This document shows, piece by piece, positions 6,593 to 63,587 of a DNA stretch of 64,000 nt. Both the position numbers and the translations under genes were made by a program. How positions within the stretch are numbered: position 1 is the stretch's first letter; the number at the start of each line of letters is the position of its first letter. The notes under the pieces are model-generated. The model did no database searches and was not told where the DNA came from. It saw only the letters and a list, made by a program, of their open reading frames with translations. Source of the DNA: a bacterium (GTDB taxonomy: Bacteria > Bacillota > Clostridia > Christensenellales > CAG-138); NCBI GenBank assembly GCA_022778545.1, contig JALFDW010000042.1, forward strand, positions 1-64,000, in the 5' to 3' direction.

Positions 6593-7115
6593 CTGTACCC
6601 CGTCCGAAAACAGCCGTTTTATGTAGTGGTTATTAGAGGGAACATACTTCCTCTGATGCACCTTAACAACTGAAAATCCAACTACTCAAACACATTAGCC
6701 GCATGGCGAGCGATTAACGCGATTGCCACGACCCATACGGCAGACAATGATACTTCCGTTCAGCCACAGTCCGAACGCATAAGGGGCTCCCGAAAAGTCG
6801 TTAGACTTTTGGGGGAGAGGAGGAGCTATGGAGCGAAAGAGCCTTGCTGCTTGCAACGAGGCGACCATAGCGCAATCAGCTCCGACGACGTCGCAGGCAA
6901 TGGGAGCGGCTCGCGGAGAACCCGGGAGAGGTGAAATTCCTATGCAGACCTGATTGGTCGGTTTGAGGCTGTTGCCCCTGCACATCGGGAAGTAGTGTCG
7001 AATAGGTGTGCATGAACATATTAAGAAGAAACGGAAAGGGCGGCGGCTTATCCTGCTCATGCAGATTCACATGGGCCGCCGTTTCATTTACAGCGTACAC
7101 TTGTGAGGTATTATC
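6593..7115. other. Gene-free 520-bp stretch inside the integration module
   Basis: No frame here looks like a gene; the minus-strand ORFs 6695-7060 and 6876-7100 have no ribosome site and unnatural composition. Structure is visible. CCCGAAAAGTC-GTTA-GACTTTTGGGG (about 6790-6815) is a near-perfect hairpin, and CGGCGGC...GCCGCCG followed by TTTCATTT (about 7039-7088) looks like a terminator just before the excisionase gene. The region could be a structured RNA or a deletion scar. Confidence 0.5.
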
Positions 7116-7337: not shown

Positions 7338-7430
7338 CTTCGTACCCTTGCGTCGCTATCTACCCGTTGCTATACTGAAATCGTCAACAACGGGTGAATG
7401 TGGCTGCTACAACAAAAGGAGGATTATAAA

Positions 7431-13807: not shown

Positions 13808-14072
13808 TAATTGAACGAATGCGTTGAAGAAGAGGAGTACGCGCCCCATCCTGCATCAGAGAGACGGCTTCACCGGCTGCAAGGGCTGTCGGCGGGCAGG
13901 CGCGGAAGGTCGCTTCGGAGCATTCCGGCTGAGCGTGTGCCATGCGCGCGGGTAAGTCGGGACGTACGCGCCGCGTTAAGGCGCTTTGAGGTGGGGCTGC
14001 GCCGTGTGCGCGCCCAACAAAGGTGGTACCGCGAGCGTTTCGTCCTTTGAGGGCGAAAGGCTCTTTTTATTT
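13808..14072 (+). promoter_or_regulatory. T-box riboswitch of valS (specifier probably GUC)
   Basis: The T-box sequence AGGTGGTACCGCG at 14021-14033 pairs with uncharged tRNA acceptor ends. Upstream, GAGGAGTACG and the partner CGTAC close Stem I, AGAGAG lies in its distal loop, and GAAGGTC at 13905-13911 is a likely specifier loop with a Val codon (GTC). CGCC-GCGTTAA-GGCG forms Stem III. Downstream, TTTCGTCC-TTTGA-GGGCGAAA followed by CTCTTTTT is the terminator that the antiterminator replaces. The gene controlled encodes valyl-tRNA synthetase, which agrees with the specifier. Confidence 0.92.
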
Positions 14073-53106: not shown

Positions 53107-53400
53107 GATACGAAAAAAGGCCGAAATACGGGGAAGAAATGCCACATAGCGCTTGCGTAAGCGCCGTGCGGCATTTATAATAGAAACGATATTGTGGAAC
53201 GGTTTGGGAGAAATCCCATGATAAACAAACCACGGCTGCCGCGCACTCCACAGCATGCGGGGCGGTACGAAAGAAAAGGAGGCATTTCATCCCGCACGGC
53301 TTGCGGTGCGGCAGTGTGGAGACCTGCCGTAATGCACGGGGCAGCTTGCCTGCGCGTGTGAGGCGAACGGAGCGGAGGCTCTGCCGCCAAAGCCGGGAAC
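53107..53400. other. Promoter and structured leader of the sugar ABC ATPase
   Basis: Promoter TTGCGT-17-TATAAT at 53153-53181. It sits inside an imperfect long dyad (AATGCC ... GCGCTT-GCGT-AAGCGC ... GGCATT, 53139-53176) that could be the galE terminator or an operator. The 210-base leader can pair CTCCACA with TGTGGAG and CCGCAC with GTGCGG. A 46-codon open frame at 53218 has a GGGAG site but does not look like a real protein. Confidence 0.55.
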
Positions 53401-54519
53401 ATGGCAAAGGTCACTCTCAAAAACGTCAAAAAGGTGTACGACAAGAACGTCGTCGCGGTGCAGGAATTCAACCTTGAAATCGCGGACAAGGAATTCATCG
53501 TGCTCGTTGGCCCGTCCGGCTGCGGAAAATCCACCACGCTTCGCATGGTGGCCGGCCTTGAGGAGATCAGCGGCGGCGATCTCTTCATCGGCGATAAGCG
53601 CATGAACGACGTTCCGCCCAAGGACCGCGACATCGCGATGGTTTTCCAGAACTACGCGCTTTACCCGCACATGACCGTCTATGAAAACATGGCTTTCGCG
53701 CTGAACCTGCGCAAGGTGGACAAGGCTGTTATCGACAAGAAGGTGCGCGAAGCGGCGGAGATTCTGGGCATCACGCAGTACCTTGACCGTAAGCCCAAGG
53801 CGCTTTCCGGCGGCCAGCGCCAGCGCGTTGCCATCGGCCGTGCGATCGTGCGCGACCCGCAGGTGTTCCTGATGGATGAGCCTCTTTCCAACCTGGACGC
53901 AAAGCTCAGAAACCAGATGCGCGCGGAGATTATCAAGCTGCGCCAGCGCATCAACACCACCTTCATCTACGTCACCCATGACCAGACCGAGGCCATGACG
54001 CTGGGCGACCGTATCGTCATCATGAAGGATGGTTACATTCAGCAGATCGGCATGCCGCAGGAAGTCTTCAACCACCCGGCGAACCTCTTTGTTGCGGGCT
54101 TCATCGGCTCTCCGCAAATGAACTTCTTTGATGCGAGCCTCGAGAAGGACGACAAGGGCTACTACGTTGCGCTGGATGGCGCGCGTATCTATCTGCCGGA
54201 AGACAAGCAGCAGGCGCTGCGCGACAAGAACGCGGCTCCGCAGGCGATCAAGCTGGGCATCCGCCCGGAGCATGTCATGCTCTGCTCGGACGACGCAGCG
54301 GCGCACATTTCCGCGACGGTGGATGTTTCCGAGATGATGGGCAGCTCCGTGCACCTGCATGTGAACGCAAACGGCAAGGACGTGGTCGTGATCATTCCGA
54401 CGCTTGACCTGCAGGGCATGCCGCAGCAGGACTTCAGCTGCGGCGCGAAGGTGAACTTCACGTTCGGCGGCAACGTCATCCACATGTTCGATCCGGAGAC
54501 CGGGATGAACCTGCTCTGA
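53401..54519 (+). CDS. MsmX/UgpC-type sugar ABC importer ATPase
   Basis: 372 residues. Walker A GPSGCGKSTT, Q-loop NYALYPHMTVYENM, signature LSGGQRQRVAIGRAI, Walker B VFLMDEPLSNLD, switch VTHDQTEAMTLGDRI, then the C-terminal TOBE/regulatory domain (IGIPQ... style GIRPEHVML). It matches multitask ATPases (MsmX, UgpC, MalK) that serve several sugar importers. No permease or binding-protein gene is near, which fits a shared ATPase. Confidence 0.93.
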   Translation: MAKVTLKNVKKVYDKNVVAVQEFNLEIADKEFIVLVGPSGCGKSTTLRMVAGLEEISGGDLFIGDKRMNDVPPKDRDIAMVFQNYALYPHMTVYENMAFALNLRKVDKAVIDKKVREAAEILGITQYLDRKPKALSGGQRQRVAIGRAIVRDPQVFLMDEPLSNLDAKLRNQMRAEIIKLRQRINTTFIYVTHDQTEAMTLGDRIVIMKDGYIQQIGMPQEVFNHPANLFVAGFIGSPQMNFFDASLEKDDKGYYVALDGARIYLPEDKQQALRDKNAAPQAIKLGIRPEHVMLCSDDAAAHISATVDVSEMMGSSVHLHVNANGKDVVVIIPTLDLQGMPQQDFSCGAKVNFTFGGNVIHMFDPETGMNLL

Positions 54520-62837: not shown

Positions 62838-62876
62838 CGAAAAAAGGCAAGCTGTGAAAATGGCTGCCTTTTTTGC
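62838..62876. terminator. Terminator upstream of the structured RNA
   Basis: GCGAAAAAAGGCA-AGC and GCT-GCCTTTTTTGCG pair; A and T runs on both sides. Confidence 0.85.
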
Positions 62877-62886
62877 GTAAAAAGTG

Positions 62887-62915
62887 TTGCGCTTAGAAAA
62901 CAAATCCATTATAAT
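62887..62915 (+). promoter_or_regulatory. Promoter of the structured RNA
   Basis: TTGCGC, 17-base spacer, TATAAT; start site expected at about 62922, just before the first conserved stem. Confidence 0.8.
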
Positions 62916-62921
62916 AATATA

Positions 62922-63150
62922 AGTTATCCATAGTTTCGGGTCTGTGGTTGCAAGTCGATGCCAGTCGCAGGCAAAACGATCCACATAAGCGGGGCAAAGT
63001 CCCCGTGAGCATGGTGCGGCTTAGATGTAAGTCCGGCCGGGGCGAAAGCCCCGAGAGAAGCAGTAGTGGGCGGCGTGAATGCCTAGTAGCGAACCTTCCG
63101 GCCGGCGGGTGTGGGGGCAAAGACCAGGTCAGCCGAAGCTTGGAATAACA
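62922..63150 (+). ncRNA. Large structured RNA, candidate raiA motif, upstream of zinc-ribbon gene
   Basis: About 230 bases, no reading frame, GC-rich and densely paired: TGTGG/CCACA (62943-62947 with 62981-62985), CGGGG/CCCCG with loop CAAAGT (62990-63005), CGGGGC-GAAA-GCCCCG (63038-63053, GNRA tetraloop) and a long-range CCGGCC/GGCCGG (63033-63038 with 63100-63105). It has its own promoter. From memory, segments such as CAAGTCGATGCCAGTCGC and GCGTGAATGCCTAGTAGCG resemble the raiA motif of Firmicutes, a large RNA tied to sporulation and air tolerance. That match is unverified; being a structured RNA is much safer. Confidence 0.75.
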
Positions 63151-63181
63151 AAAATAATTTTTACAAGGGGATATCAGACAC

Positions 63182-63454
63182 ATGTTCCAGGACAAGACAT
63201 TGGTATGCAAGGATTGCGGCGCGGAATTCGTTTTCACCGCAGGCGAACAGGAATTCTATGCCGAAAAAGGCTTCCAGAATGAGCCTATCCGTTGCAAAGC
63301 GTGCCGGAATGCCCGCAAGAGCCAGCGCTCGAATGACCGTGAAATGTATGATGCGGTCTGCGCACAGTGCGGCGCGCCCACCAAGATCCCGTTCGTTCCC
63401 AAGAACGACAGGCCCATCTACTGCAGCGCCTGCTTCCAGAGCCGCAGGGGCTAA
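63182..63454 (+). CDS. Zinc-ribbon domain protein
   Basis: 90 residues: TLVCKDCGAEFVFTAGEQEFYAEKGFQNEPIRCKACR is a zf-trcl type zinc ribbon (CxxC ... CxxC), followed by VCAQCGAPTKIPFVPKNDRPIYCSACF, a second ribbon of the CxxC type found in many Clostridia. Function unknown. It sits 30 bases after the structured RNA, apparently on the same transcript, with AAGGGG as ribosome site. Confidence 0.9.
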   Translation: MFQDKTLVCKDCGAEFVFTAGEQEFYAEKGFQNEPIRCKACRNARKSQRSNDREMYDAVCAQCGAPTKIPFVPKNDRPIYCSACFQSRRG

Positions 63455-63559
63455 GAAGCTGACACGCGCCGGTAGAAGAGCGCAAAGACCCCCATGCTTG
63501 GGGCTAATCCCCTTTGTTCCGTTTGATGCGGCAATAACGGTGAATTAGAAAAGGCAGAA

Positions 63560-63587
63560 AAGCTCCGGCAGGGCCGGAGCTTTTTTT
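63560..63587 (+). terminator. Terminator of the zinc-ribbon gene
   Basis: AAGCTCCGGC-AGG-GCCGGAGCTT followed by TTTTT. Confidence 0.93.

Follow-up and report, generated by a model that had tools for sequence, protein, structure and literature searches.

A raiA (ModT) RNA directly ahead of a double zinc-ribbon gene in a CAG-138 bacterium: a recurrent pair with a predicted common message

The raiA motif (ModT) RNA occurs in thousands of species and is very abundant, and cryo-EM structures of it exist. ModT has been described as a very abundant, stable, trans-acting RNA (PMC11706538). Protein-dependent DMS protection was reported for it, and its Grad-seq sedimentation profile suggests a protein complex; a C. 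difficile ModT deletion is fully complemented by a copy taken from Clostridium sp. CAG:138 (PMC11706538). As gene neighbours of the RNA, that paper, which cites Soares 2024, gives comFC (74%) and raiA (66%).

The window analysed here is a stretch of 64,000 nucleotides from a CAG-138 genome (contig JALFDW010000042.1, positions 1 to 64,000). A structured RNA lies near its end, between a promoter and a small zinc-ribbon gene. The features of the locus are as follows.

62840..62874, + strand: intrinsic-terminator-like hairpin (AAAAAAGGCAAGC...GCTGCCTTTTTT) closing the preceding DUF436 (TIGR01440) gene; sequence and terminator scan
62887..62915, + strand: promoter, TTGCGC (62887-62892), 17 nt, TATAAT (62910-62915); sequence and homologous loci
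62923..63149, + strand: full RNA as predicted, P1 helix lengthened; the added pairs are seen in the letters and recur in the computed fold
62931..63141, + strand: raiA motif RNA (RF03072), full length; covariance-model match and covariation in 30 homologues
62963..62969, + strand: 5' strand of pk-1 in the P3 loop (AGTCGCA), pairing with 63015-63021
62981..62985, + strand: 5' strand of P4 (CCACA), pairing with 63110-63114
63015..63021, + strand: 3' strand of pk-1 (TGCGGCT); covariation count
63039..63052, + strand: GNRA hairpin GGGGC-GAAA-GCCCC, taken as P7; sequence and covarying stem
63110..63114, + strand: 3' strand of P4 (TGTGG), pairing with 62981-62985
63150..63181, + strand: A/T-rich linker with Shine-Dalgarno AAGGGG (63165-63170), 12 nt before the ATG
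63182..63454, + strand: gene of a 90-aa zinc-ribbon protein, zf_Tbcl (PF13451) plus zf_Tbcl_2 (PF23477) / TIGR04272; profile search
63558..63587, + strand: intrinsic terminator after the zinc-ribbon gene, a bidirectional hairpin (AAAGCTCCGGC/GCCGGAGCTTT) with a T run; sequence, and a scan match on the - strand

Covariance-model search showed that the RNA is a member of the raiA/ModT family. The Rfam model RF03072 (curated cut-off 101.3 bits) matched on the + strand at 62931-63141 with 199.5 bits and E 2.9e-51, covering positions 1-209 of 209. A sequence-only reading of this DNA had remarked on a resemblance to raiA-motif RNAs, and the end-to-end match bears it out. The same reading placed a structured RNA of about 230 bases between promoter and zinc-ribbon start. 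This agrees with the predicted length of ~227 nt, which includes a P1 extension outside the RF03072 model (GTTATCC at 62923-62929 pairing with GGAATAAC at 63142-63149). Its statement that the region holds no reading frame was correct insofar as none is gene-like; mechanical open reading frames of 66-145 aa do cross the region. The genome (2.14 Mb, ~92% complete) contains a single RF03072 copy.

The alignment with 30 homologues from the same order, in which pk-1 and P4 were placed from the cryo-EM description (PMC11751092), showed strong covariation, pk-1 and P4 included. Over the whole structure, the share of paired cells is 95.8%, and both sides change in 27 of the 47 pairs. The covariation score was 0.395, against 0.135 (sd 0.008) in shuffled alignments, which do not remove relatedness, and at most 0.09 when the partners were slid, which keeps it. 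The seven pairs of pk-1 in the window are paired in 95.7% of cells, with double changes in three pairs; P4 (CCACA/TGTGG), which closes the P5-P8 region next to P1c, is paired in 100%. P1 carries the conserved GGUCUGUGGUUG...CCAGGUCAGCC core. The long-range pairing and the GNRA-capped helix described from the letters alone are both present, the former as P1, pk-1 and P4, all backed by covariation. Thermodynamic stability was uninformative as proof of an RNA (z = -1.0; 28 of 200 shuffles fold equally well). The folding energy alone is unremarkable; the evidence beyond chance consists of the model score and the covariation.

Three other RNA motifs were found in the window, all on the + strand. 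A malK-I motif RNA (RF03069, 127.3 bits) at 53228-53406 stands directly ahead of a gene for a MalK-like ABC-transporter ATPase (53401-54519), which is followed by an FtsH-like protease gene. A pemK motif RNA (RF02913, 62.5 bits) was matched at 6744-6945; its 61-position model spans 202 nt there, because ~140 nt are inserted behind the first strand of the helix. The neighbourhood showed no pemK-like gene; an integrase-like one follows at 7398. A T-box leader (RF00230, 99.4 bits) occupies 13815-14050.

The gene downstream of the raiA RNA encodes a double zinc ribbon, with two predicted zinc-binding domains, as the sequence-only reading had stated. Both domains, zf_Tbcl (E 4.7e-27) and zf_Tbcl_2 (E 5.5e-20), scored above their cut-offs (for PF13451, 94.1 against a gathering cut-off of 24 bits), and TIGR04272 (CxxC-x17-CxxC) also matched. 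The genome has no other PF13451 gene. Four CxxC pairs are invariant among 57 homologues. The AlphaFold2 model is confident and has two domains (pLDDT 88, pTM 0.48). A fold search with this model gave no PDB match at E <= 0.001, and a sequence search of the PDB found no relative. As no solved structure is significantly similar, nucleic-acid binding is proposed from the nature of the protein: small, basic (pI 8.7) and of treble-clef type, it is likely a nucleic-acid binder.

The recurrence of the pair was analysed within the order (151 genomes) and across a sample of the phylum (399 genomes), and 99 raiA RNA loci were examined. In the order, the RNA was found in 53 of the 151 genomes, 34 of which have a zinc-ribbon homologue just downstream on the same strand (60-82% identity in tblastn matches). 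At 61 of the 99 loci, 28-47 nt separate the RNA from the start of a zf_Tbcl domain encoded on the same strand; these counts are not independent, the loci being related by descent, and the family-level figure (19 of 31 families) and the turnover of neighbours are safer. Many of the genomes are MAGs. The sequence-only reading had offered a fork, a new RNA class or a raiA RNA whose gene link would be informative, and the second branch holds, with the zinc ribbon as recurrent neighbour. In the other 12 families the RNA occurs without a zinc-ribbon neighbour, so the protein is not an obligate partner everywhere. Judged from the sequences compared, the link is real and recurrent, yet not universal. 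Other raiA RNA loci show periplasmic binding proteins, neighbours previously described. In the literature outside the two primary raiA papers (Soares 2024, Weinberg 2017), a search for the raiA motif with zinc, zf-trcl or CxxC-x17-CxxC returned nothing relevant, and no mention of the link to the zinc-ribbon gene was met there.

Co-occurrence at the genome level was rejected as an argument, since it is strong in the order and absent in the phylum. Within the order, the zinc-ribbon gene is present in 47 of 53 genomes with the RNA and in 32 of 98 without it, a difference confounded by ancestry. In the phylum, zf_Tbcl genes (265 of 399 genomes) are far commoner than raiA RNA, and they are hardly more frequent in RNA-bearing genomes (35/48) than in the others (230/351). 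Most zf_Tbcl proteins therefore work without a raiA RNA.

The surroundings of the pair suggest a single transcription unit. In the window, the -10 box is perfect and the spacing is 17 nt, whereas the -35 box has 3 of 6 consensus bases, and a strict promoter scan missed the site. The form TTGC-17-TATAAT is nevertheless usual at homologous loci, and a TTGC-type promoter was found at 52 of 61 zinc-ribbon-linked loci versus 9 of 38 unlinked ones. The predicted transcription start lies ~7 nt beyond the -10 box, at the base of P1. At 56 of the 61 linked loci a terminator-like hairpin follows the zinc-ribbon stop codon within 130 nt; shuffled sequence would give 6.8, and 23 of 122 control windows have one. 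The first 90 nt behind the RNA hold a terminator at 2 of these 61 loci, compared with 14 of 37 raiA loci without the gene. The outer genes turn over: among pairs of loci from different families, 115 of 1483 share the upstream gene and 146 of 1702 the downstream gene (~8-9%). The placement of promoter and terminator, together with this turnover, argues for a conserved, predicted unit of promoter, RNA, zinc-ribbon gene and terminator.

Leaders of zinc-ribbon genes were also compared. At many loci the Shine-Dalgarno region in front of these genes has the conserved form AAAGYGAGGGG, whether or not a raiA RNA is present. At four loci of one family (f21), where the gene is unlinked to raiA RNA, another conserved leader was seen (CCTATGGTC...GGAGTTAAGAAA...GTCATCTCGTC...ACCATGG), which may be a different structured RNA. 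The leaders at L160 and L082 contain fragments like a raiA P1 strand (AAAACCAGGTCGGCTAAGCAAG; GGATCTGTAGTTGAATGCCGATGC...GTGTGGGGTCAAAGACAGGTC). They are perhaps decayed raiA RNA, and were scored neither by RF03072 nor by the model of the short form described below. That model found no raiA remnants at 54 zinc-ribbon loci without an RF03072 match.

A short form of the RNA, here called mini-raiA, was found in Thermosediminibacterales. Eleven matches in the phylum fell below the RF03072 cut-off (42-59 bits); all 11 precede a zinc-ribbon gene, and 10 have a length of just 113-120 nt. Named genomes were also scanned by pattern, and 13 copies turned up in Thermosediminibacter, Fervidicola, Thermovorax, Tepidanaerobacter and MAGs related to them. 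Each of the 13 has the zinc-ribbon gene downstream; for one of them (L173) this was read from the downstream sequence, MAFQDKVLVCKDCG. In the 16 distinct copies, P1, P3 and a varying P5 are retained, together with the GCCG/CGGC core of pk-1; P4 is present as either of two pairings, CCCUC/GAGGG or CCCAG/CUGGG, and P6-P8 are absent. The mini-raiA model matched known raiA RNA loci exclusively, the window's included, and no further mini forms were found in the phylum sample. This recovery supports homology between mini-raiA and raiA RNA.

We favour, with a probability of roughly 0.55, the reading that a SigA-type promoter of its own drives the window's raiA (ModT) RNA, that this RNA opens a message with the zinc-ribbon gene as its one gene, and that a trans-acting RNA is thereby produced together with a candidate partner protein. 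Transcription would start at the foot of P1 and yield one message, which would run through the RNA and the small double zinc-ribbon gene to the intrinsic terminator. Processing of the 3' side, inside the 28-47 nt linker, might release or protect the compact RNA in a stable form, and this RNA would act in trans, as ModT does elsewhere. Read-through would yield the zinc-ribbon protein, a likely nucleic-acid binder and co-produced partner of the RNA.

The main rival is a leader function, in which the raiA RNA of this lineage would work mainly in cis and regulate, from the 5' end, the stability or translation of the zinc-ribbon message; it might be bound, for example, by the zinc-ribbon protein (autoregulation) or by a ligand. 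This idea fits the position of the RNA, which stands at a constant distance from the gene within the predicted 5' UTR of a unit with one gene, and the exclusive location of mini-raiA ahead of zinc-ribbon genes. Rfam types RF03072 as "Cis-reg; riboswitch", and leaders of 60-175 nt are also frequent at zinc-ribbon genes that lack the RNA. However, no expression platform was recognised. The scarcity of terminators after the RNA (2 of 61 loci) leaves no attenuator or terminator/antiterminator switch, and no sequestration of the Shine-Dalgarno sequence was seen. Its accessibility was 0.38 with the RNA and 0.40 without, in secondary structures that ignore pseudoknots; for the SD-like sequence of the window, the unpaired probabilities were 0.74 and 0.72. 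Moreover, the RNA elsewhere is distant from genes, can point either way and is trans-acting (PMC11706538, PMC11477304). Because neither sequestration nor an attenuator was found, a trans role fits better than a cis switch, and the trans-acting RNA with its zinc-ribbon protein is favoured; the cis leader is a possible but rather unlikely account.

It is improbable that RNA and gene are separate units that became neighbours by chance in an ancestor. Vertical inheritance within families and the commonness of the zinc-ribbon gene in the phylum would allow for this. Yet the spacing of 28-47 nt is kept in 19 families despite the few shared outer neighbours, the stretch between RNA and gene is almost always free of terminators, and the pair persists where the RNA is cut down to its 113-120 nt core.

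A new RNA class merely resembling raiA, suggested by a downstream gene that is not raiA, is ruled out for practical purposes by the full-model match at about twice the cut-off and the conservation of P1, P3, P4, pk-1 and P5-P7.

The raiA gene proper (long HPF) is present on the same contig, outside the window, at 71829-72383 on the same strand, with its start +8688 nt (8.7 kb) downstream. This corrects the sequence-only reading in one point: a raiA gene is not missing here. Within 8 kb of the RNA no raiA gene was found, and the gene immediately upstream is DUF436. At seven loci of two other families (f53, f158), a cold-shock protein gene (MQGKVKWFNQKKGFGFI...) stands between raiA RNA and raiA gene, in the place of the zinc ribbon; one genome of family f82 shows the same arrangement. 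These genes again point to small nucleic-acid-binding proteins.

The published synteny of raiA RNA was judged uninformative, and the zinc-ribbon protein offers a concrete candidate partner or target. Its gene is predicted to be co-transcribed in many families, and persists where the RNA has been reduced to a core. More tentatively, raiA RNA and the two-domain zf_Tbcl protein may form an RNA-protein module, expressed as one transcription unit in Clostridia-type lineages, of which the P1-P3-pk-1-P4-P5 core (113-120 nt) would mark the needed part. The mini form might then define the minimal functional core of raiA RNA. Against the partner model, mini-raiA lacks P6-P8, where the protein-dependent DMS protection was reported in C. 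difficile.

In comparison with known systems, the window RNA shares with raiA/ModT RNA the full-length sequence and structure match, including P1, P3, P4, pk-1 and P5-P7, as well as its own promoter 10-20 nt before P1 and a raiA (long HPF) gene in the genome. The cryo-EM structure also contains pk-2 and non-canonical tertiary contacts (PMC11751092), for which the conserved sequence was seen in the window RNA. The long isoform of C. difficile ModT has its own terminator, whereas the window RNA is predicted to lack one and to form the 5' end of the zinc-ribbon message. The neighbours described for ModT are comFC and raiA; in the window, the zinc ribbon is adjacent and the raiA gene is 8.7 kb away. 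Among the zf_Tbcl / CxxC-x17-CxxC proteins (PF13451, PF23477, TIGR04272), the window protein shares both domains, well above cut-off. OLE RNA forms a ribonucleoprotein with the small protein OapA. The likeness to OLE RNA and OapA is one of possible mode of action alone, a large conserved structured RNA working with a small protein, and at the present locus that partner is predicted from sequence.
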